This document shows, in pieces, positions 29,641-51,089 of a stretch of 64,000 nucleotides of DNA. The notes under the pieces are model-generated. The model had not been told where the DNA came from. It did no database searches and was given only the letters and a program-made list of their open reading frames with translations. The stretch covers positions 19,473 to 83,472 of the forward strand of contig CALVTP010000003.1 in NCBI GenBank assembly GCA_944362765.1, written 5' to 3'. The translations under genes were made by a program, and so were the position numbers. Source of the DNA: an uncultured Clostridia bacterium (GTDB lineage: Bacteria > Bacillota > Clostridia > Christensenellales > DTU072). Numbering within the stretch: position 1 is the first letter of the stretch; each line of letters starts with the position of its first letter.

Positions 29641-30342
29641 TCAGAACTCCAATTTATCCCTTTTGATGGCGGCGCGGAGTTTTTCCAAAGCCGCTTTTTC
29701 TATTCTAGAGACGTAGCTTCTCGAAATACCCATGAGTTTTGCCGTTTCCTGCTGCGTTTTTTGGGTTTCGCCGTCCAGACCGAATCGCGCGCGTATCAAA
29801 AAACGTTCCCGCTCCGACAGTTGTTCGGAGACAAGTTTTCCGAGGAGCTCCTTCAAAAAACCTCTCTCGGCGCCTGCCCAGACGGAGTCTTCGTCCACGC
29901 TCAGCATGTCTGCCAGCGTGACGTCGCCTTCCTCGCGGTCGGTTCCCACTTTTTCATAAATGGAGATGTCGTTCCGCCTTTTTTTGTAGCCGCGCATAGC
30001 CATCAGAATTTCGTTTTCGATGCAGCGCGAGGCATATGTCGCAAGCGTCGCCGACTTTTCGGGAGTATAGGAATTGATGGCTTTTATAAGCCCGACAGTG
30101 CCGACGGAGACGAGTTCGTCTTTGTCGGGATAATTGACATACTTTTTTGCGATGTATGCGACAAGTCTCAGATTGTGTTTGACTAGAGCGTCGCGCGCTT
30201 CTCTGTCGCCCGCGGCTGCTTTTAAAAGGAACTCCTTTTCCCTTTCTTTCGAGAGCGGCTGCGGAAAGGAATTGCCGGTGTCTATCCCCGCGGAGAGTAT
30301 CATAATGTTACTTAAAAGCGCGAAAAATCCCTCTAATATCAT
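29641..30342 (-). CDS. sigK: RNA polymerase sporulation sigma factor SigK (precursor)
   Basis: A 233-residue sigma factor from the chosen ATG. A short hydrophobic pro-sequence (MILEGFFALLSNIMILSAG) is followed by SFPQPLSKEREKEFL, HNLRLVAYIAKKYV, DELVSVGTVGLIKAI and a C-terminal region 4 (ISRSYVSRIEKAALEKL). This matches SigK, the late mother-cell factor, not SigE. The frame continues 117 nt upstream but that part has no homology. The gene is continuous, with no sign of the skin element that splits sigK in some species. No ribosome-binding site precedes the ATG, and a sigma-E-like -10 ends six bases before it. Confidence 0.92.
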   Translation of the reverse strand: MILEGFFALLSNIMILSAGIDTGNSFPQPLSKEREKEFLLKAAAGDREARDALVKHNLRLVAYIAKKYVNYPDKDELVSVGTVGLIKAINSYTPEKSATLATYASRCIENEILMAMRGYKKRRNDISIYEKVGTDREEGDVTLADMLSVDEDSVWAGAERGFLKELLGKLVSEQLSERERFLIRARFGLDGETQKTQQETAKLMGISRSYVSRIEKAALEKLRAAIKRDKLEF

Positions 30343-30348
30343 AATTGA

Positions 30349-30378
30349 AGTATATGCCGCGAGGATGGGGAACGTGCG
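30349..30378 (-). promoter_or_regulatory. Probable sigma-E promoter of sigK
   Basis: On the minus strand: CGCACGTT (30378-30371; 5 of 8 to GKMATATT), 14 bp, CATATACT (30356-30349; 7 of 8 to CATACAHT). sigK is a sigma-E target in B. subtilis. The spacing puts the transcript start at or next to the sigK ATG. Confidence 0.45.
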
Positions 30379-30470
30379 GAATTTGTCGAAAGGAATAACA
30401 TTTTTCAGGTAACCGTCGTCGCGCATTTTCGGCGGGGAGTGTCCTCTACGAAAAATCATCCGAAGTTTAT

Positions 30471-30499
30471 TTGCATATTTTCCGGGAGTATGCTATACT
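30471..30499 (+). promoter_or_regulatory. Sigma-A promoter of the OLE RNA
   Basis: TTGCAT (30471-30476), 17 bp, TATACT (30494-30499). Transcription should begin near 30506, four to six bases before the terminal helix of the RNA. Confidence 0.85.
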
Positions 30500-30506
30500 A
30501 TATACA

Positions 30507-31105
30507 AACTGAATAATGGTGGTGCAGTATTCTAGTCAGGTGCGGTACAATCGAAGGCGGGGTTAAAATACCGTTAAAGAGCATATCGATGAAGTTTCTT
30601 GTGTTTGCTTACGTTGCCCAAACGTGGGTTGATGCTGGGAGTTAAGGTTCTTGGGCGACCGATAACGGCATATCGGTGACGACCCAATTACCGTGGAGAC
30701 CTATATCGGTGGAGGAAGGGCAATATTCGGCCCGCACTCTACTGAATGGGATTAAACCTGCAATGCGGTACTCAAATGCTGTGTGCAGTGTAGCTTGCCT
30801 TGAGTGAAGTCGCGTGAATTAGGGTATCGGATCGATAAGGGTTCGCGATTCTTGTCGGTCTCTGCTTATGAAACCTTCTTTGCAAAAGAGGATAGATTGT
30901 ACCTAATCTGTAAAAGAAATTTTCTAGACTGTTTTAAGCCGAGGATTATAGTGTGCACTAAGTGGCGATTCGGTTATACGCTGAGTAATCACGGATTGCA
31001 GCCCTTAAAAGGAAACTGCTCGGGCGGCGACGACGAGTGGGCTGTAGGGAAATCCTACCGAACCTGATGGCGCAAGGTTTACTGGGCTTATTGCCACCAT
31101 TATTC
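30507..31105 (+). ncRNA. OLE RNA (ornate, large, extremophilic RNA)
   Basis: About 595 nt without a credible gene, starting just after a good promoter. The ends pair exactly: GAATAATGGTGG (30511-30522) with CCACCATTATTC (31094-31105), 12 pairs plus two G-U, closing the whole molecule. An internal arm is TTGGG (30651-30655) with CCCAA (30683-30687) around CCGATA (30659-30664) with TATCGG (30671-30676). Known OLE RNAs are about 600 nt, bind membrane protein OapA encoded just downstream, and sit near tlyA, argR, recN and spoIVB. All of these follow here. The RNP protects against cold, alcohol and magnesium stress in Halalkalibacterium halodurans. The identification rests on size, closure and context, and a covariance-model search was not possible. 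Confidence 0.9.
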
Positions 31106-31133
31106 CGTAATAATCTCAATTCTTTTAAGGGAT

Positions 31134-32036
31134 ATGTCTGAGAATCTGGAAAGCAACAGCCGAACAAAGTTAAACGCCCCGGAAGGGGAGGCAGCTTCGG
31201 AGCCTTCTTCCGAAGCCGTTCCGTTATCTTCGGAAACTTCGAAAACACCTTTGCATGAGGGCGGGGACAAGCCGTTAAGCGACGAAAAGCCCGATAAATC
31301 CGACAAAAAGTCACACGAGAAACCCCCTAAAAAAGGTCTCAAAAAAAGTACGATCTGGACTATCCGCATAACCGTCGTCACGCTGTTTTTAAGCTGCTTT
31401 TTCTCGTTTGTATCGGAGCTTGCTTCGACGAAGGCGCATTTCAGCATAATGATAATTCTGCTGTTTTTCCTTATTACGCTGTCGATAGCTGCGGACGCGA
31501 TAGGCGTTGCGGCGACGTCTTGCGACCTGGCGCCGCTGCTTGCCATGGCGTCCAGAAAGGAACCCGGAAGTAAACAAGCCATTATGCTTGTAAAAAACGC
31601 CGAACGCGTCTCCAATATCTGCTGTGACGTAATTGGCGATATCTGCAGCATCGTTTCGGGTGCGTGCGCGCTTGCGATAGTCATCAAAATCACAGAGGGC
31701 ATGAACGAAACGCTGAATATGGTGATATCGATACTCGTTTCGGGTATAGTCAGCGCGATGACGGTGGGCGGTAAATCGATGTTCAAAAACGTCGCCGTCA
31801 ATAACTCCAAGGAGCTTATAATGCTGGCGGCGCGGTTCATAAGCGTCTTTTCTCCGAAGGACAGAAAGGAAAAAGCCAAACAAAAGCAAAAAGCCATAAA
31901 ACAGGACAAATCCGACAAGCCTTCCGACAAGAACAAGGTTAAATCCGATAATCCCGCAAGACCCGTTTCCGCAGCCGATGAAGACGGCAGGAAAGAGGGC
32001 TTGGCGGAGACTGGATCCCGCGGAAATGAGGCTTGA
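31134..32036 (+). CDS. oapA: OLE RNA-associated membrane protein OapA
   Basis: A 300-residue protein whose core (about 72-235) has four predicted membrane helices: 75-95, 102-120, 166-186 and 193-212. The core contains ADAIGVAATSCDLAPLLAMASRKEPGSKQAI and CDVIGDICSIVSG, where Asp165 and Asp169 form the DxxxD motif of OapA. OapA recruits OLE RNA to the membrane. Here the core is flanked by a charged 70-residue N-terminal tail (rich in Glu, Lys, Ser and Pro) and a Lys/Asp-rich C-terminal tail of about 65 residues. As I recall the family, the protein is usually near 190-200 residues, so these tails are unusual. It begins 28 nt after the RNA and overlaps tlyA by 11 nt. Confidence 0.88.
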   Translation: MSENLESNSRTKLNAPEGEAASEPSSEAVPLSSETSKTPLHEGGDKPLSDEKPDKSDKKSHEKPPKKGLKKSTIWTIRITVVTLFLSCFFSFVSELASTKAHFSIMIILLFFLITLSIAADAIGVAATSCDLAPLLAMASRKEPGSKQAIMLVKNAERVSNICCDVIGDICSIVSGACALAIVIKITEGMNETLNMVISILVSGIVSAMTVGGKSMFKNVAVNNSKELIMLAARFISVFSPKDRKEKAKQKQKAIKQDKSDKPSDKNKVKSDNPARPVSAADEDGRKEGLAETGSRGNEA

Positions 32037-32757
32037 CAACTACTTATCCGAAGCGGGGCTTGCAAAAAGCCGTACCCGCGCAAAAAACCTTATTCTGACG
32101 GGGAAGGTATCCGTCGACGGCTTGGTCGTGCGCAAAGCCTCTTTCGAAATTCAGCCCGGACAGTCGGTCTCGGTGAATTCGGAAGAGGATTTTTCTTCTT
32201 TGGGCGGAATAAAGCTGAAAAATGCCCTCGAAAAGTTCAATATTTCTCCCGAAGGCAAGGTTTGTATCGATATCGGCGCTTCGAACGGCGGTTTTACCGA
32301 CGTCATGCTGAGGGCGGGTGCAAAGAAGGTTTATTGCGTCGATGTCGGCGAATGCGCTCTTCCTGCGGACATGCTGGCGGACGACAGGGTGGAGGTCAGG
32401 GACAGGCTGAACGCGAGATTCATTTCCTTTGAAGATATCGGCATTCGGGCGGAACTTATCACCGTCGACGTATCGTTTATTTCGTTGAAATTGATTCTTC
32501 CGGCGCTTAAACAGTTCATGAACGAGGATACCGCTCTCATTGCACTGATAAAACCGCAGTTCGAGGTAGGGAGAGCGTTGCTTTCGAAATCCGGAGTCGT
32601 CAAAAATCCCCGCGAAGCCGAAAAAGCCGTTTCGGAAGTGGTGGCATTTGCCGCCTCGATAGGGCTGAAAGGCTTGGGAGTAGTCGAAATCCCCCGCCTT
32701 TTCAAAGACAAAAACCGCGAATATACGGCGTATTTCAAGCTTCGGAAAGAGGAATAA
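32026..32757 (+). CDS. tlyA: TlyA-family rRNA 2'-O-methyltransferase (hemolysin A-like)
   Basis: A 243-residue protein with an N-terminal S4 RNA-binding domain (MRLDNYLSEAGLAKSRTRAKNLILTGKVSVDG) and an FtsJ-type SAM-dependent methyltransferase domain (CIDIGASNGGFTDVMLRAGAKKVYCVDVG, later TVDVSFISLKLILPAL and LIKPQFE). TlyA 2'-O-methylates 16S and/or 23S rRNA. The longer frame from 31978 lies inside oapA, and the ATG at 32026 begins the conserved S4 segment. Placement after oapA and before nadK-argR-recN matches the OLE locus of other Firmicutes. Confidence 0.92.
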   Translation: MRLDNYLSEAGLAKSRTRAKNLILTGKVSVDGLVVRKASFEIQPGQSVSVNSEEDFSSLGGIKLKNALEKFNISPEGKVCIDIGASNGGFTDVMLRAGAKKVYCVDVGECALPADMLADDRVEVRDRLNARFISFEDIGIRAELITVDVSFISLKLILPALKQFMNEDTALIALIKPQFEVGRALLSKSGVVKNPREAEKAVSEVVAFAASIGLKGLGVVEIPRLFKDKNREYTAYFKLRKEE

Positions 32758-41894: not shown

Positions 41895-44800
41895 ATGAGA
41901 GGTCCGACTATGAGGAAAACGATTTCGAAAACCTATAAAAGAAGGCTTTGGTTGACGGTTTTTTCGGCAATCATGATAGTTGCGGCGATCGCCGTGCTTT
42001 CCGTAACCGTATTTACCGAACGGAGTGCGCCCGACAAAACGGCAGGCGCCGCGGTGCTTACAAGCTGGAACGTTTCTTCCAACGGAAATTACGAACTTAA
42101 TTCGGGTATCTCGGTTACGGCTTCGGCAAGGACGAACAGCCTCAGCAACGTAACGATAGACGGAAAGGGGCACACCATCACTATTAACGGCAACGGGAAT
42201 ATTTACGACCAGACAAGAAGCGGAGGCGAATCGCTTTCCGCGGGAATACTGTTCGGCTCGGTAAACGGGCTGACGCTGAAAAACGTTACAATAAACTATA
42301 ATGCCACGGTTTCTTTTACCGGCAGGAATAATGCGAGCAGACCCTCAGATACCAGTGACGACGCGGCATCGAGGAGCACAATCCTTTATGCCGGGATAAT
42401 AGCGGGAAGCATGACAGGCACGAACACATTCGAAAACGTTACGCTGAACATGACTTCCTCTTCTAGATTCGCCGCAATCGGCATCGACAACGGTGATAAC
42501 GGTGCAGAAAAATTCGGACCGGGTCAGGGTACCGCCGCAGGATTTATCGCCGGGAGTCTTACGGGAACAACTGAAATTAAAGGCATGAGCTTTACCAATG
42601 ACGGGCTCATCCATTCCCGCGCCGCATCAAAAAATATTGGCAATACATATACGTATGGTACTTGGGGGAATCAAGTTGTGCCGGTATTGAAGCCAACCGA
42701 CAGGGTCACCTCCAATGCGGGGGGGCTTTTCGGCGTAATAGGTGCATACAGCACAGAAAGCAGCGGAACGTTAAATGTGCAAAACCTTGAAATTCTGGGG
42801 AGCGGTGCCGTGGGTACGTACACGAACCTGAACGGCAATCCTCGTACCATGAAAGAATATTGTCTTGATTATTCCGGCGGTCTTGTGGGCAGAGTACTGG
42901 AAGGCAGCGTTGATTTGGAAGACTTGTATTACAGAGCCGGTCTTCAGATTTACGGCAGTCGCGGCTTTAGCGCCGCAAAGCTTCTGGTCGGCAGCGGTAC
43001 GTTTTCTTTAAACGGTATCTGGTTTAACCCCGATAACGGAACGGTAAAAAGTTCCCGCTGGAACGGCGCTTGGAACTCAAACACAGAACAGACTCTCGGT
43101 TCGTTGACAAAACCCGCAAATGTCGGCGGCGGCTCGTTTAACGGCTATTCTTCTTTCGGGGACGACGGTGCCACCGGCATACGGAGTTACAATACGACCG
43201 TAAAATACGAGGGCAGCAAAAACGTCAGCGGTTACAGTATGGATATCACTGGTTTTGCAAGGAATAGCGGCGCAATAACCGATTATATGAATCTCGAAAT
43301 AACCCTCGGCAACACTGCCGACGTTATATTGTCGTATGTCGAAAAGAACGGGTCGGTCACCCGCGATTACTTCGAGGAAAAGTTAAACAACCAAAAGATT
43401 AATATCACCGACTTCATAGGCGACAGAATCAACAGCTTCAATAATACCGCACAGTTCGAAGTCATGCTGGCGGATACCTATACAATAAATTATGGAAATA
43501 TCGGGAAAACGGACAATCGTAACGGCGACGTAACTTATGCCGGGACATCTCCGGGAGTGCCCCATGAATTGTCTTTGGTTCCGGTATCCGGTTCTACAAC
43601 GGAAGGTTGGGAGATTGATTACAGATGGAAGTCCGAACACTTCTTTATCAATTCGGCGGGCGAGTATTATCTGAATGAAGACAGAACTCTTCAACAAAAA
43701 AATTATACTTATACCGAAACCATCGGCGATGAAGTGATTCTGCATGAAGGTACCGATACGGGAAACCCGCATTATGACACTTACTCCGTCTTTGGCTCGA
43801 ATGCGATAACAACCTCGCCGTATGCGGGTATATACCGGGTCAGTCTTGTCGACAATGCCGGCAATGCTCCCGCTTCAGGAGCGCTGGTGGCAAGGAACAC
43901 GAACAAAACCGCATTTTATTATTTCGACGATTCTTCAGACTATCTCCAATATAAAATATTGCGCAGAAAATTGATGGTGGAACCGGTTACGGACGCTTCC
44001 GCAATAACGAAGACATACGACGGCACTAATGAGGTTCCTTCCTCCAGCATCATTGCGGGGACGCATTATTCTACGACGCGTATACTCGATGACAACTCCC
44101 AATTGAGCGGCGTCTACTCAAACGATGACACCCGCGTAGGTCTTGAAATGACCGAGGGCGGTTTCAGCGGAGTAAATGTCGGTGCTGCGGCTGTAAATGT
44201 AAAATTCAGGATCTCCGACACTTCAGACTATGTCCAGGTAGATAACACCGGGAAGCCGACTTCGGAGGAGATTTCGCTTGATATTAACGGACGGATAGAT
44301 AAGCGTGCGCTCATGGTCACGTACGGAGAGTCGTCGCTTGTTTATCTCGGGCAGAACGTGGCGCCGACGCCGTCGGTCAAAGGCTTCTATCTGTACGGTA
44401 TCGACGAAACGGATGATTTGTATATAAGGCTGAAAGAGGAAATCGACGGATTGTTTTCGGGTGGCGGGTATGTCGTCGAAACTTTTTCCGAACATTCGGA
44501 GGCGGCAAACCGCATCGCAGAATTCAACAAGGCATACGACGAGGGAGGTTCCGTTTCCGAGAAGACCACGGCTTCACCGTTCAATGTCGGAACCAATTAT
44601 TGCGTGATGGTGATGCTGGAACCCGAGACTTACAACAGCTGTAATTTCTCTATAAGATCCACCGAAGGCGGCAACTTCGCTTATTTCAATATCGTCGAAC
44701 GCGAGGTGGCGATTGATTGGGAAGCGATGAGCGGACAATTGTCCAAAACCTATAACGGACAAGAGAACACTTTCACAATAGCTCCGATATGGAAAGCGGT

Positions 44801-47800
44801 TGACGGAGCGGATAATACGGGCATAGCGGATCCCGATAAAGACGAAGATTTTAAATATACCGTTACCTATTTTAATAATAACGATCCCGACGACAAGGGG
44901 ACTGACTCGGGAGTAAAAAACGCGGGAGAATACACCGCAAAAGTGGCTCTCGGAAGCGAAGGCATTGCTCAAAACTATGTGTTGGCAGGGGAACTTTCCG
45001 GCACTCTCGTTGTGAAAAAAGCCGATCTCAAGGTAAATTATTCCATCACCGGATTCAACAACGGAAACTATTTGGACGGAGACTCTACTTCCATAGTATA
45101 CGCCCATCTTGCCTCTCAATTTACGAACGTCTCGTCCCGTAACGACTACGATCTTACCAAAAAAATTCAGGTCGAATTCGAGACGAATCCGGACAATATA
45201 AAGGCGGATAACTCCAATCCGTATACCGCGAACGTCATTCTGACTTACACCAAAAACGGTACCGCAGGCGATATTACGATGTGGGACGTAGGAGATTACC
45301 GGCTTTCGGTAGCCTGGTCGAGCAGCTATTCTTCAGCCGAAGAGGGCGGCGCCAACTATAATCTCGTCAACGCCGAGCACGAGTTCATCATCACGCCGCT
45401 TAAATTGGAATACGACGATATCGACGAAAGTGCGCTGACAGCCGAATACAGCGGCACGGCGCCGAGTTTCCCGACTCCGGGAAACAACGCAAACGCGCTG
45501 GACAGACTGGATTTCACTAAAAAATATTACTACTACTCGGAAGACGCGGAAGACGCAGCCGATAACAGGGGCGAAGAAATAGCTAACCCCGGCTCTATAA
45601 CCGACGCAGGGAAGTATATCATGGCATATTCCCTGAACTCAAACGTCAGCCCGTATTCGACAAACTATCAGGACGATCCGAGAGATTATGTCTTCGAGAT
45701 TACACCATTCGATATCGAAAACAACAGCGGCGGCAGATTCGAGATCGTCTTATACAACCTCTCGTATCAATACCGCGGTCAAGGGGAAGAAGTGGAATTG
45801 GAGTTCGGGAAGGACTATATCATTACGTTCAACGGTAATAACCAACCTGCCTCGAATTATATCATTTCCTACGAAAACAACGTCGATATCTCTACCGACG
45901 AAAACCCCGCAAAAATGATAATCAAGGCAAATAACCCGAATTTCACGGGCACTGTGACAAGGAAGTTTACCATTACTCCTCGCACTATCAACGTCCGCAT
46001 ATATTATACCGGAGACGACGGGGCTCCGGAAATTGTGTCGAATCGCGGCAGAGTCACTCACGTCTACGACGGCAGGGATATGAGTAAGGAAGAAAGATTC
46101 TACGCCGTACTTTACTATACCGAAACCGATGCCGAAGGCGAGATTGTCGAAGTGCCTCTTCCCGATACGGAAGCCATTCCCGAAATAGTCTTCGAAGACG
46201 ATGCAGCCGTCAATGTCGGCACATACACTGTAAAATCCGCTTTTACGGAACCCGACGGAAAAAATAATTACAGGGCAGAAACCCTTCCGACCTGCACGTT
46301 GGCAATAACCGAGCGCAGGCTGAGTGTCAACGTTTCCGCTCCCGGCGACGAGTATACGGAAGTAACGACGGCAAACGGCAAAAATTTCAATGTAGTTTAT
46401 AACGGCACGGACAGGACGCTTGTCGTAACAGTCGGAAATACGGCAGAGGGAGAGAGCTTCACCGCATCGGTATCCTTCCGTGATTACGAAAATAATTATT
46501 ATAACGAGAGTGTTATAAGCAAGGAAACGGCAAACGTCGGAACATATCTTCTGAGAATCGAGGTTACTCCCGGTGAAAACACCTTGGAGGATAACTACGA
46601 TTTTGCCGAAACGGAAAATGTTTCGGGCACAAATTATCAATTGAAGGTTGAAAAACGCAGCGTTCAATTGGTGCTTTCCGTAGCGGAAGACGCCTCGGAG
46701 GAAATGACTCTGAATGAGGAAACGGCGACCTTCTCGACGACCTACAGCGCTTCTTCCAAAGACGGGCTTATTACCTGGAGGATGTCCGATAACAACGCGG
46801 AGGACGAAGGTGTTATCGAAGGCGACGAGCTTACCGTCAGCCTGACTTACAGGGATTCCGACGGCATCCAGATCAGCAGCCCGATAAATGCGGGTAGTTA
46901 CGTCATCGACGTCGGAAATGCCAATTCCAACGCCAATTACAGCGTGACGATCGAAAAGATGACGTCCGGTGCGAAGGAGCTCGATTGGCGTCTGGAAATC
47001 GAACGCGCTCCCCTTAAAGTTACGGTAATTCAGTCCACGTATGAAAGAGGCGACGACACCGGAAACGGTAAAATCTATGACGGGCTGGAATACTCAAGCC
47101 GCTACCGCAGATTTACATTTAAATATGACGGGGCAATGAGCGAAGGCGATCTTTCCACCTTTGACGGCGCCTTCGTATATACTTTCTATAAGGATGAGAT
47201 ATCCGACGCCAATAAGCTCTCCTCGGCTCCGTCGGACGCAGGTCACTATCGGGTGCGTATTCTGTGGAACCCGAGCTCCGCGCCCGCAAACAATTACATA
47301 CTGGACAGGGAAGGCGGACTCAGTTATATCGATGAGGAATTCACCATATTGACCCGATATATCGGAGTAAGCTTCGGAGAAAATGACGAAAGTTTCTATA
47401 ATGCGGCGTCACAGATAAGAGAGGCTAACGCTTCGAGCTTGGCTAACGATAACAATTCGGGAGTGATCAGCGGACAGACCGTAAATCTCGTTACGGTGGC
47501 GCTGACGGTGGTTGACGGCAAAGTCGTCGTCACGCCTGTGGACGAAAATTATAACGGCTCCGTGAATACGGGCACTTACTACTTCAGCGGCTACCTTGAC
47601 GAGGAAGTTTATCCGAATTACGAAATTGCCCCCGGGGCGTTGGCGAAAACAATCGAAATCGAAAATGCCCCGTATGATTTGCCGCCATTCGAAGGGCACA
47701 GCCTTGCCAAGCCCGCGGTGCTTAAAATATTGGCTTTCGGCTATACCTTCCAAGAAAATGATTTTAAAGACAGCATTGTATGGTCGAAACAATACGGAGA

Positions 47801-50800
47801 CTCCGACGGCGCGCTGATGGAGTTCGATTTCGAAGTGCTGCAAGGCGAAATTTTGCGTTTAAGATTGGTGCGCGATAAAGGCGATTCCGTCGGTTCGTAC
47901 GGAATAACAGGCATCGAAATAGTGGGTAAATATACCGATGACGGCTTGGTAATCAAAAATGTTCGGGAAAATTATAACCTTGGCGTACAATGCGCCACCA
48001 AGTTCAATATAACCAAGAGGGAAGTCGTATACGACCTCAGTAACTATGTCGTGCAGGTGGATTACGACGGAACCATCTATATAAGTAACGAAAGTAACAT
48101 ACCCTCGGAGGATCATACGGGTTACGTCTGGCCCGAAGTCGGGAAGGAACCATTCAATATCCTTAACGAACTTTCCGACATAAACGGCAAAAACTATCCA
48201 CTTAATTTTGCGCTCATACCCGATGCCGACAGAGGCGTCAGCGACGCCGGCTGGTACAACATAAAGCCGGTGGTGCTGATGAGCGAAACGGACAGCGAAA
48301 GCTTTAATGTAACTCTTGCTTCCGATAACTTAGAAAAATTCCGTATCAGACCGCAGACGATAAACTTCACGCTGGGCACGGTGGACGGCGTGGGATTTGA
48401 TAAGGTTGGGGAAGACAAGTTCGTTTATGAACAGGTCTTCCGCTTCAGACAAAGTGACGTCGGTGCTTCGGCGGGATACGAAGATTATACGTTCTTTGAG
48501 GAGCCCGACTACTTCGCGTTTATCCAAATTCCCGAAAAGGACGAAAATGGCGCGTATTGGGGATATAAGCCGCTTGACGAAAAATACGCCGAATGGCTTA
48601 CGATCGGAAACGACGACACGGAGGCGCTGAGAGGGATTTTCCAAAAATATCTGAGGATCGAGCGCGTGATTTCCTCTTCCTCAACCTCTCACTACGTCGG
48701 CGAATATCTTATTAAAATAACGGTTCTCGACGAAAGCGGCAGCGAAAACGGCAACTTCGAACCGGAGAACAATATAAAATACTATTTCAAGATAACCGAA
48801 TTTGACTTGAACAATGCCGTTTCCGATGCCGACCGGGAGGCTCTTATCGGCATAGTCCCGAAGGAAAAGACCTATGACGGCACAAACGACGTCTCCAATA
48901 TTCCGATGAGCAACAATATGGATAAATTCGGCGCGGAGTTCGTATTCTATTACGAGACGCTGCACCTCGATTTTTCGGCTGTTTATTCGGACGGAACAGG
49001 TTTTAACGCGGGAGAGGGCAAGGATATCATCGTTACCAATAAGTTTACGAACAGTTCTTTATCTGTCAATAATAACTTCATTCTTCCCAAACCGGTCGTC
49101 ATAGAGGGCGGAGGAAGCATTCTTAAAAAGGATCTGACGGTATCGATATCCGATTTCGACACTCCCGTCGAACTGACGTACGGAGACAGACTGATGTACG
49201 ACGGCGCCGTCAGCACATATTCCGGCTATGCCGTTTCGGCTGTCTTCCGGGGCTTCCTCACGGGAGAAAATCCCGATACGGCAGGAATATCCGTTTCGAT
49301 AAGGTTCACCGACAGAGTAGCGCTTGACGCCGTCCGAGACGTAGGTTCCTATACGATAGAGGTCGTTGCGGAGTACAATGAGGGCGCCGCTCAAAACTAC
49401 AATCTGATTTTCAGCAGTCATCAACGTACCGTCAACGTCTCCAAGAGAACGATCTCGATAGTTCCCACCGGCACGATATACGAAAAACCGGTAAACGGCA
49501 AAACAGATGTCCCGAATTTCTACGTCTATAACGGCGAGATACAGGAAGACAGAAACTCTGTTTTGAACGATTACTTTACCGTCACGGGTCTGGTGGAAGG
49601 ACAGGACGCAAATCTCAGGATAGGTTACAATATCGCGATGTCGACCGCCGAAGTATCCGACAACGCCTATGTCATTATCTCCAATATCGTGTTGTACACG
49701 GGAGATGATGAACTTACTCCGAACCCGAACTATGCCTTAGGTTCCGCTTCCGTCGTACAGATAAAAGCCAAAGTACATTCGTTGGGCACGGTGACGCTGA
49801 ATCAGGAGACGGGCGGCACCATCACCTTCGTTTACTCGAACACGCCCGTCAACGTCGGACTGACCACCAATCTTTTGGATATCGACGGATATAATGTCAC
49901 CGCCGAGCTTCGTTACTCCGGTGCGCAGGGCACGGGAACCGTTTATCCCGTGGATACCTCCGACCCCAATTACAGTGACCGTTACTCCTTGCTTGCCCCC
50001 ACAAACGCCGGCGATTACGTCATTGAAATCTGGCTGAACATAAAAGGCGTCGGGGTCAACGAGGATATGGAACCGTTTTCTTCTCATCAGCGCGACGTCT
50101 CGTTGAAGATCACCAAGGCTAAGCCGACGATAGTGTTCTCAAGACAAGACGCAACGATGACTTATGGCGATTTCGACGCCGAAACCAACGCCGTTTCGGC
50201 TGAGGTGTACTTCCTTGCCGACGAAAAAATCCCAAGTCAAGCCGTTAAGGTAAACTACTCCTTTGCCCTTGCGGACGGCACTCTTCCCGAGAATCCGCCT
50301 GTCGGAACGCATACCGTGACGGCTACTTTTGAAGGGAATTCCAATTATCAGAGTGTTTCCGCGCTGGAAGCTTCCACCACTCTTAAAATTGTCCAAAAGA
50401 AGATCACCGTCAGCATATCCGGTACGGACGACCTGACTTATTCGGGGGTCGACTTGCAGGATAAAATAGTGGTAACCTTCGACGGCGTCATCGCGGGAGA
50501 CGTATGCGAGCCCGTCAAACGCCTCACTTTCGGCAGCGTAGCAGTAAACGAGGTCGTCAACGCCGGGCAATATAACGTCAAAGTGTCTCCGTCGAACACC
50601 AACTACGTCATTTCGGGACCCAGCTCCAAGGGCTTTACCGTCAACAAACGCACGCTGGTCGTTACCGCAACCGCTCCCGGCACTCATCTCGGGGAATCGC
50701 CTCAGTTCACGTTCGACTACGCGGGCTTTGCCGAAGGCGACACCGTCGAAGACCTGTTGCACGCTCCTACGGTAAATCTCGGCGGCGTGTTGGTAGGAGA

Positions 50801-51089
50801 CAACACGATAAAACCCAGCGGCGGCGAGGATCCGAACTATCAATTCGTTTACCGCGAAACAATCCTTGTGATATTGCAGCCGCGCGCTCAGGCAGAGGAT
50901 TCCGAAGGAGGCGGCGGGCTTTCGAACGGCGCCACGATGGCACTGATAATCGGCGGAGTCGTAGTGGGAATAGCGCTCCTTATAGTTCTTGCTTATGTCA
51001 TAAAGACGGCGACCTACCGCAGTATGTACAACGTCGGCTCCATCAAAAAGAAGGTCAACGAGGAGATGAAGAAAAAGTCAAGAAAATAA
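41895..51089 (+). CDS. Giant MBG/YDG-repeat surface protein (3064 residues)
   Basis: A 3064-residue predicted surface protein. An N-terminal membrane segment (about 16-40) is followed by a beta-helix-like region (about 50-540: NVTIDGKGHTITINGNG, LTLKNVTINYN), then 16-18 immunoglobulin-like repeats of about 100-115 residues from about 690 to 2990. Each repeat opens near a Y(D/N/S)G core such as KTYDGTNEV, KTYNGQEN, EYSGTAPS, VYDGRDM, KIYDGLEY, KTYDGTNDV, TYGDRLM and TYSGVDL, resembling MBG/YDG adhesin repeats. The C-terminus has one membrane helix (about 3013-3036) and a basic cytoplasmic tail, with no LPXTG. Adhesion is likely but unproved. It lies 12 nt after scpB with GGAAGG before the ATG, so it may join the scpAB transcript, and it ends at a strong terminator. 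There is no frameshift. Confidence 0.8.
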   Translation: MRGPTMRKTISKTYKRRLWLTVFSAIMIVAAIAVLSVTVFTERSAPDKTAGAAVLTSWNVSSNGNYELNSGISVTASARTNSLSNVTIDGKGHTITINGNGNIYDQTRSGGESLSAGILFGSVNGLTLKNVTINYNATVSFTGRNNASRPSDTSDDAASRSTILYAGIIAGSMTGTNTFENVTLNMTSSSRFAAIGIDNGDNGAEKFGPGQGTAAGFIAGSLTGTTEIKGMSFTNDGLIHSRAASKNIGNTYTYGTWGNQVVPVLKPTDRVTSNAGGLFGVIGAYSTESSGTLNVQNLEILGSGAVGTYTNLNGNPRTMKEYCLDYSGGLVGRVLEGSVDLEDLYYRAGLQIYGSRGFSAAKLLVGSGTFSLNGIWFNPDNGTVKSSRWNGAWNSNTEQTLGSLTKPANVGGGSFNGYSSFGDDGATGIRSYNTTVKYEGSKNVSGYSMDITGFARNSGAITDYMNLEITLGNTADVILSYVEKNGSVTRDYFEEKLNNQKINITDFIGDRINSFNNTAQFEVMLADTYTINYGNIGKTDNRNGDVTYAGTSPGVPHELSLVPVSGSTTEGWEIDYRWKSEHFFINSAGEYYLNEDRTLQQKNYTYTETIGDEVILHEGTDTGNPHYDTYSVFGSNAITTSPYAGIYRVSLVDNAGNAPASGALVARNTNKTAFYYFDDSSDYLQYKILRRKLMVEPVTDASAITKTYDGTNEVPSSSIIAGTHYSTTRILDDNSQLSGVYSNDDTRVGLEMTEGGFSGVNVGAAAVNVKFRISDTSDYVQVDNTGKPTSEEISLDINGRIDKRALMVTYGESSLVYLGQNVAPTPSVKGFYLYGIDETDDLYIRLKEEIDGLFSGGGYVVETFSEHSEAANRIAEFNKAYDEGGSVSEKTTASPFNVGTNYCVMVMLEPETYNSCNFSIRSTEGGNFAYFNIVEREVAIDWEAMSGQLSKTYNGQENTFTIAPIWKAVDGADNTGIADPDKDEDFKYTVTYFNNNDPDDKGTDSGVKNAGEYTAKVALGSEGIAQNYVLAGELSGTLVVKKADLKVNYSITGFNNGNYLDGDSTSIVYAHLASQFTNVSSRNDYDLTKKIQVEFETNPDNIKADNSNPYTANVILTYTKNGTAGDITMWDVGDYRLSVAWSSSYSSAEEGGANYNLVNAEHEFIITPLKLEYDDIDESALTAEYSGTAPSFPTPGNNANALDRLDFTKKYYYYSEDAEDAADNRGEEIANPGSITDAGKYIMAYSLNSNVSPYSTNYQDDPRDYVFEITPFDIENNSGGRFEIVLYNLSYQYRGQGEEVELEFGKDYIITFNGNNQPASNYIISYENNVDISTDENPAKMIIKANNPNFTGTVTRKFTITPRTINVRIYYTGDDGAPEIVSNRGRVTHVYDGRDMSKEERFYAVLYYTETDAEGEIVEVPLPDTEAIPEIVFEDDAAVNVGTYTVKSAFTEPDGKNNYRAETLPTCTLAITERRLSVNVSAPGDEYTEVTTANGKNFNVVYNGTDRTLVVTVGNTAEGESFTASVSFRDYENNYYNESVISKETANVGTYLLRIEVTPGENTLEDNYDFAETENVSGTNYQLKVEKRSVQLVLSVAEDASEEMTLNEETATFSTTYSASSKDGLITWRMSDNNAEDEGVIEGDELTVSLTYRDSDGIQISSPINAGSYVIDVGNANSNANYSVTIEKMTSGAKELDWRLEIERAPLKVTVIQSTYERGDDTGNGKIYDGLEYSSRYRRFTFKYDGAMSEGDLSTFDGAFVYTFYKDEISDANKLSSAPSDAGHYRVRILWNPSSAPANNYILDREGGLSYIDEEFTILTRYIGVSFGENDESFYNAASQIREANASSLANDNNSGVISGQTVNLVTVALTVVDGKVVVTPVDENYNGSVNTGTYYFSGYLDEEVYPNYEIAPGALAKTIEIENAPYDLPPFEGHSLAKPAVLKILAFGYTFQENDFKDSIVWSKQYGDSDGALMEFDFEVLQGEILRLRLVRDKGDSVGSYGITGIEIVGKYTDDGLVIKNVRENYNLGVQCATKFNITKREVVYDLSNYVVQVDYDGTIYISNESNIPSEDHTGYVWPEVGKEPFNILNELSDINGKNYPLNFALIPDADRGVSDAGWYNIKPVVLMSETDSESFNVTLASDNLEKFRIRPQTINFTLGTVDGVGFDKVGEDKFVYEQVFRFRQSDVGASAGYEDYTFFEEPDYFAFIQIPEKDENGAYWGYKPLDEKYAEWLTIGNDDTEALRGIFQKYLRIERVISSSSTSHYVGEYLIKITVLDESGSENGNFEPENNIKYYFKITEFDLNNAVSDADREALIGIVPKEKTYDGTNDVSNIPMSNNMDKFGAEFVFYYETLHLDFSAVYSDGTGFNAGEGKDIIVTNKFTNSSLSVNNNFILPKPVVIEGGGSILKKDLTVSISDFDTPVELTYGDRLMYDGAVSTYSGYAVSAVFRGFLTGENPDTAGISVSIRFTDRVALDAVRDVGSYTIEVVAEYNEGAAQNYNLIFSSHQRTVNVSKRTISIVPTGTIYEKPVNGKTDVPNFYVYNGEIQEDRNSVLNDYFTVTGLVEGQDANLRIGYNIAMSTAEVSDNAYVIISNIVLYTGDDELTPNPNYALGSASVVQIKAKVHSLGTVTLNQETGGTITFVYSNTPVNVGLTTNLLDIDGYNVTAELRYSGAQGTGTVYPVDTSDPNYSDRYSLLAPTNAGDYVIEIWLNIKGVGVNEDMEPFSSHQRDVSLKITKAKPTIVFSRQDATMTYGDFDAETNAVSAEVYFLADEKIPSQAVKVNYSFALADGTLPENPPVGTHTVTATFEGNSNYQSVSALEASTTLKIVQKKITVSISGTDDLTYSGVDLQDKIVVTFDGVIAGDVCEPVKRLTFGSVAVNEVVNAGQYNVKVSPSNTNYVISGPSSKGFTVNKRTLVVTATAPGTHLGESPQFTFDYAGFAEGDTVEDLLHAPTVNLGGVLVGDNTIKPSGGEDPNYQFVYRETILVILQPRAQAEDSEGGGGLSNGATMALIIGGVVVGIALLIVLAYVIKTATYRSMYNVGSIKKKVNEEMKKKSRK

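Follow-up and report, generated by a model that had tools for sequence, protein, structure and literature searches.

What does the OLE RNA do for the membrane protein encoded beside it, and what can that protein do alone? The function of OLE RNA has been a question for nearly 20 years. In published work on Halalkalibacterium, the RNA binds OapA, is located at the membrane, and supports tolerance of stress and Mg2+. The window, that is, the whole 64-kb stretch of DNA that was analysed, carries such an RNA and protein pair. Its genome (G000) comprises 1.71 Mb in 68 contigs and is 92% complete, and it was compared with 297 genomes of the same order, all of at least 90% completeness.

The OLE RNA of the Window and Its Neighbours

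The presence of a genuine full-length OLE RNA beside an OapA gene, claimed in the preliminary description of this DNA, was confirmed. A search with the OLE covariance model returned a match far above the gathering score of 50, and the alignment contained no gap of more than 12 nt. RF01071 was the sole Rfam family at gathering level within the window, and a whole-genome search found a single OLE copy in G000. The features of the RNA are as follows.

30470..30499, + strand: sigma-70-like promoter site (TTTGCA, 18 nt, TATACT, with TG ahead of the -10)
30503..31113, + strand: OLE RNA, full length (RF01071, model positions 1-616 of 616, 433.3 bits, E 6.5e-124)
30511..30522, + strand: OLE closing helix, 5' strand, exact complement of 31094-31105
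31094..31105, + strand: OLE closing helix, 3' strand, exact complement of 30511-30522

The complementary 12-nt ends were found exactly as described. The window and 17 other family loci were compared. A closing helix of at least 10 pairs (G-U allowed) was present at the OLE ends in 11 of the 18 and a helix of 7-8 pairs in four; no closing helix was identified at the OLE ends in three (L007, L008 and L030). Compensatory changes were observed in the closing helix of some family loci (AACGGTGG/CCACCGTT and GATTGGTGG/CCACCAATC). The OLE ends are unpaired in the Rfam structure line.

The promoter site that had been claimed is present, sits just ahead of the RNA and matches at 9 of 12 positions. Taken alone it is weak evidence, as a scan of 0.8 kb gave three promoter-like sites, compared to 1.3 expected in shuffles. 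The gene-free stretch, given earlier as 595 nt, measures 674 nt between the divergent sigK ORF and oapA.

The gene order was as had been claimed, OLE-oapA-tlyA-nadK-argR-recN-spoIVB, with sigK divergent to the RNA. Two neighbours are relevant here.

29641..30459, − strand: sigK, divergent from OLE, a neighbour outside the RNP (NF004471, 255.9 bits, cut-off 252)
32026..32757, + strand: tlyA (TIGR00478, 204 bits), its first 11 nt shared with oapA

The sigK ORF scored 244.8 bits against TIGR02846, below the cut-off of 298.65. Of 18 family loci, three had a sigma-factor match upstream of OLE: the window and those of G005 and G006, to which it is most closely related. The divergent sigK beside OLE is a local feature. 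The nearest named relative is Candidatus Stercoripulliclostridium merdigallinarum, with 90% identity over the 177-aa OapA core among the best 80 of at least 585 relatives. The host, previously described as a gut-type clostridium, looks like a Stercoripulliclostridium-like gut clostridium. The locus is a textbook OLE-oapA locus and is new only as a member of the family. Elsewhere in the window (41895-51089, + strand), a single ORF of 3064 aa was noted, which by eye appears exported and membrane-anchored, with repeat-like segments.

The part of the covariance model representing the OapB site, at the end of a stem that we take to be P13, was aligned in the window RNA, and the letters of the GGCGAC loop are kept. 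Likewise, the conserved AUCGAUGAAGUU and its adjoining letters, a putative k-turn site for OapC, are retained. Outside the window, an L7Ae-type gene at G000:C7 is a candidate for OapC on sequence grounds. This answers the earlier suggestion to look for oapC in the rest of the genome. The gene lies just upstream of rpsL (recognised by eye), and the encoded protein resembles OapC/YbxF in its neighbour and in its best PDB matches, 3v7e (L7Ae-like) and 4lck (YbxF), both with E of about 2e-7; its Pfam L7Ae score is modest (25.6 bits, cut-off 22.1). OapC is identified with YbxF in the available part of PMC9723947. For OapB, PF01176 (IF-1, the infA route), which was detected in 13 of 14 control genomes, was not found in G000. 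Three KOW matches were obtained in G000; one of them, a 105-aa frame, was considered as an OapB candidate and rejected, as by eye it looks like YajC, and the same was seen in G001.

OapA Has a Predicted CNNM-like Fold

The preliminary description took the membrane protein with a DxxxD motif downstream of the RNA to be OapA, an assignment that the following features bear out. Residue numbers throughout are those of the window OapA.

31134..32036, + strand: oapA, CNNM-like membrane protein of 300 aa (PF01595 match below the cut-off, DxxxD motif, MtCorB/CorC-like predicted fold)
31524..31577, + strand: OapA TM2-TM3 helix-turn-helix, residues 131-148 (P134, M138, A139, K142, G145), kept with OLE; P134 or M138 altered in 42 of the 43 OLE-free rows
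31626..31640, + strand: OapA DxxxD (D165, D169; DVIGD, residues 165-169), invariant with or without OLE

The match to PF01595 (CNNM) fell short of the cut-off (22.4 compared to 28.4 bits), and no Pfam domain besides it was found in the protein. An identity as MpfA was rejected for the ORF on account of this low score and the lack of a further domain (CBS, CorC). An AlphaFold2 model of residues 70-246 predicted seven helices with a mean pLDDT of 81.2, and no residue reached 90; the TM2-TM3 helix-turn-helix is made up of the helices at positions 63-71 and 77-85 of the modelled segment. When the model was compared with the PDB by Foldseek, the top six matches were CNNM/CorC chains, with a TM-score of up to 0.61 and a probability of 1.00. 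The best E value among them was 6.3e-3, five of the six exceeded 0.01, and none reached 0.001. A PDB profile search with OapA gave no match. The window OapA is thus predicted to have a CNNM-like transmembrane fold.

Four basic residues lie in the TM2-TM3 loop and 21 after TM4, with one and none in the two other turns. Given this distribution and the positive-inside rule for membrane topology, the TM2-TM3 loop is placed in the cytoplasm. Among the best 80 of at least 585 relatives, OapA frames of Bacilli (including L157, L160, L174 and L205) were 36-38% identical to the window OapA.

OapA Occurs Without Detectable OLE RNA

Of 58 relatives, 44 had an OLE match, as did 133 of the 297 genomes of the order. 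One more genome (G263) at first appeared OLE-free; its contig ends inside OLE, and it was counted as OLE-positive, giving 134. OapA was present in 173 genomes, counted with a strict profile, as a looser first profile also took in MpfA rows. OLE without an OapA match occurred in one genome (G069). OapA without detectable OLE was present in 40 of 297 genomes. Families f6 and f26 account for 22 and 15 of these, genus g8, which belongs to the family of the window, for two, and f8 for one. In four further f6 genomes both OapA and OLE were missing, and MpfA was present.

A less filtered whole-genome OLE search of these 40 genomes gave no matches; the same family search matched in G000 and in Anaerofustis, which served as positive controls. 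Permissive cmscan of the oapA loci detected no OLE in 23 of 25 OLE-free loci outside f26 (L090 and L092 were left out), and none in 18 OLE-free loci of f26, where an OLE-linked f26 locus matched in the same run. The gap between ispA and oapA was −31 to 177 nt in 25/25 OLE-free loci of f6, g8 and f8, so that an OLE RNA cannot fit there. In f26, the OLE-free oapA lies at a different locus, and an L20-leader-like sequence adjoins it in 14 of 18 cases (27.3-51.4 bits, all below the gathering score of 58.7, with E above 0.3 in two of the 14). Three f26 genomes (G078, G140 and G285) carry both an OLE-free copy and an OLE-linked oapA.

In a protein tree of 85 rows, built by a quick method, the OLE-free G033 grouped as sister to G019, an OLE-positive member of its genus, with an SH-aLRT of 97. 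The tree requires a minimum of three changes of OLE state. Loss of OLE within the genus of G033 and G019 is therefore the simplest reading. The 2024 literature, in the part available, suggested that OapA and OLE found apart reflect a failure of search or assembly. The occurrence of OapA without OLE argues against the published suggestion that the two may never occur apart. No earlier report of OLE-free OapA was found in the literature consulted, which was mostly open-access and available in part (including PMC12265935, PMC12054373, PMC10898510 and PMC12286853).

Several other arrangements were noted. Anaerofustis (L163) was considered as a cultured example of OLE-free OapA and rejected, since OLE is present elsewhere in its genome (455.8 bits) and is only unlinked. 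In Anaerofustis stercorihominis (L163, L211), OLE lies behind a valS-like frame, and oapA keeps tlyA, nadK, argR and recN downstream. In genus g24 (L072, L073, L128, L129 and L130, from G046, G087 and G069), OLE and oapA are on separate contigs in two genomes, and the third has OLE without an OapA match. L108, L109 and L110, from f26 bacteria with small genomes, are second OapA copies close to an L20-leader-like sequence, and each of these genomes also has an OLE-linked copy at another place. Two partial OLE matches, at G186:C36 and G186:C5, possibly represent one gene split between contigs.

The TM2-TM3 Loop Changes Where OLE Is Absent

Seven residues of the core (D121, D165, G168, D169, G176, K214 and K218) were kept in 155/155 rows. 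The pair P134 and M138 was present in 96 of 106 distinct OLE-positive rows and in 3/3 rows with unlinked OLE; taken together, 99 of 109 distinct rows have it, compared to 1 of 43 OLE-free rows. Fisher's exact test of the latter comparison gave p 1e-26, which is no true probability, as the rows are related; the genome counts are likewise not phylogenetically independent. Among the OLE-free rows, the pair was kept in 0/22 of f6, 0/18 of f26 and 1/3 of g8 and f8. Among the OLE-positive rows, it was kept in 24/26 of the window's own family, 11/14 of other families of the order, 2/3 of the OLE-linked f26 copies and 62/66 of the wider Bacillota (59/63 after removal of three duplicates), the last drawn from the best 80 of at least 585 relatives, those nearest to the window OapA.

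The OLE RNA upstream of the wider Bacillota genes was recognised by motifs and then confirmed by cmscan in 66/66 (7 + 59). The duplicates (L131 = G005, L133 = G022, L139 = G019) are excluded from the totals and included in the per-group figures and the Mann-Whitney p values. Rows were left out where the upstream DNA was cut, short or unclear (L138, L145, L154, L173, L204, L134, L149 and L210), where a stop lay in the matched range (L144, L150), or where they repeated G040, G123 and G224 (L143, L161 and L191). The 43 OLE-positive rows of the order comprise 40 rows and the three f26 copies, and they represent only some of the OLE-positive genomes that were found; the unlinked G046 and G087 were counted apart from them.

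Conservation fell most over an 18-residue span beginning at residue 130, in f6 (Mann-Whitney p 3.3e-8) as well as in f26 (p 6.6e-7), and no loss of loop conservation was seen in the OLE-positive control family f1 (p 0.25). Outside the loop, f6 and f26 were more conserved than the wider OLE-positive set, as expected for narrower groups, and the loop change is thus not a general relaxation. The three f26 genomes with two copies provide a control within single genomes: the OLE-linked copies carry M138, A139, K142 and G145 in 3/3 and P134 in 2/3, whereas the second copies carry P134 in 0/3, M138 in 0/3, G145 in 3/3 and K142 in 1/3.

Several observations speak against this reading of the loop. P134 or M138 is missing from ten of the 106 OLE-positive rows, 16 of 18 f26 rows retain G145, and the three OLE-free g8 and f8 rows have only partly changed loops. 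Furthermore, the f6 and OLE-free f26 genes adjoin in the tree with a joining branch near zero, and their loop losses may thus be one event.

MpfA in OLE-Free Genomes

MpfA was defined by a CNNM match with an E value no higher than 1e-15, alone and without a CBS or CorC criterion. No such match was found in G000. MpfA-like proteins were present in 28 of 134 OLE-positive genomes, in 25 of the 40 with OapA and no OLE, and in 115 of 123 with neither. Within the group of 40, they occurred in 25/25 genomes outside f26 and in 0/15 of f26. An anticorrelation of OLE with MpfA has already been published, and it recurs here within one order. What is new is that, outside f26, MpfA goes with the absence of OLE even where OapA remains.

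Proposed Role of the RNA and Alternative Explanations

Our preferred reading, with a probability of roughly 0.6, is that OapA is a CNNM-type transporter with an OLE-dependent TM2-TM3 loop, whose core is also able to work RNA-free. At this locus the OLE RNA would be transcribed, probably under a promoter of its own, with OapA produced from the gene just downstream. OapA would be the ion-handling membrane part, through the invariant D121, D165, D169, K214 and K218, and the TM2-TM3 helix-turn-helix (about 131-148, PxxxMAxxK) may be the surface that meets or depends on the RNA. The RNA would then serve OapA in the role that the cytoplasmic CBS and CorC domains have in MpfA. After loss of OLE, the transporter core would stay under selection and the RNA surface would decay. 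What the analysis shows is the RNA and the protein, the predicted fold, OapA in genomes with no detectable OLE, and a loop that changes there as the core does not. We infer the contact of the RNA with the loop, the ion transport, and the regulation of one by the other. A broader version, that OapA belongs to the CNNM transporters, is regulated by RNA and has an RNA subunit that can be removed, and that several lineages dropped OLE, kept the core and lost the docking signature of TM2-TM3, with MpfA present outside f26, we regard as an even chance. In the parts of the sources available, an RNA in place of the regulatory domains of MpfA had been proposed by Fernando and Breaker (PMC11332333), and the binding of OLE by a positively charged cytoplasmic cluster of OapA had been speculated (PMC12265935).

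The locus could instead be an ordinary OLE-oapA locus in which the loop changes reflect lineage-specific drift or a switch of partner, unrelated to OLE. The closeness of the f6 and OLE-free f26 proteins in the tree favours this, and the f26 form, at its other locus with the L20-leader-like sequence, may be under different constraints. This explanation is harder to reconcile with a loss centred on one span when all 40 f6 and f26 rows retain the seven core positions. It is also at odds with the wider OLE-positive Bacillota, which keep the pair in 59 of 63 distinct rows at a mean pairwise identity (0.44, the three duplicates still included) below that of f6 (0.53) and f26 (0.49). The rows with unlinked OLE keep the pair without exception, and P134 or M138 is changed in two of the three OLE-free g8 and f8 rows. 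On balance, we consider this explanation rather unlikely. We find it somewhat more doubtful that OLE acts mainly as a ribozyme or scaffold and that OapA does no more than anchor it. The size and conservation of the RNA would suit such a role, and a ribozyme is speculated upon in the available part of PMC11332333; however, OapA without OLE keeps the putative ion-site residues, for which a simple anchor would have no use.

It is also conceivable that the OLE-free genomes do have OLE, either too diverged for detection or absent from the assembly. The assemblies are 91-100% complete and not closed, a search without matches does not prove absence, and both G263 and Anaerofustis, with its OLE on another contig, illustrate how an RNA can be overlooked. 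Nevertheless, the whole-genome search gave 0/40, the permissive scans were empty at the loci listed above, ispA and oapA are closed up in all 25 loci outside f26, the 22 f6 genomes agree with each other, and no f6 genome is among the OLE matches. We judge a hidden OLE to be very improbable.

If the broader version holds, evolution would have mapped an OLE-contact surface of OapA at residues 131-148. No earlier surface of this kind was found in the literature consulted (mostly open-access, available in part), and the proposed OLE-dependent surface and its decay are new from the present analysis. The OLE-free OapA proteins represent a natural deletion experiment, separating the protein's own needs (the aspartates and two lysines) from its apparent needs for the RNA (131-148). 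The comparison names residues to mutate and offers an RNA-free OapA for the measurement of transport.

Comparison with Known Systems

The window RNA resembles the full-length OLE class of Fernando and Breaker (2024) in its complete match to the model and in the adjoining oapA, and differs only in its host and the divergent upstream sigK, with P7-P9 compared only as part of the whole alignment. Similar to the OapA of Halalkalibacterium, the window protein is a CNNM-like membrane protein with a DxxxD motif, encoded directly after OLE. It differs in its long charged tails, with 300 aa compared to a median of 231 in 40 OLE-positive rows (first-start lengths). A CNNM-like OapA had already been reported by Fernando and Breaker in 2024 (PMC11332333, in the part available). 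The MpfA/CorC/CNNM Mg2+ transporters are predicted to share the membrane-domain fold with OapA, with a weak profile match; OapA differs from them in having the DxxxD motif and no further Pfam domain. In the six MpfA alignments viewed, P134 was absent from all, M138 was matched in two and A139 in all six, and only the proline is thus clearly peculiar to OapA.
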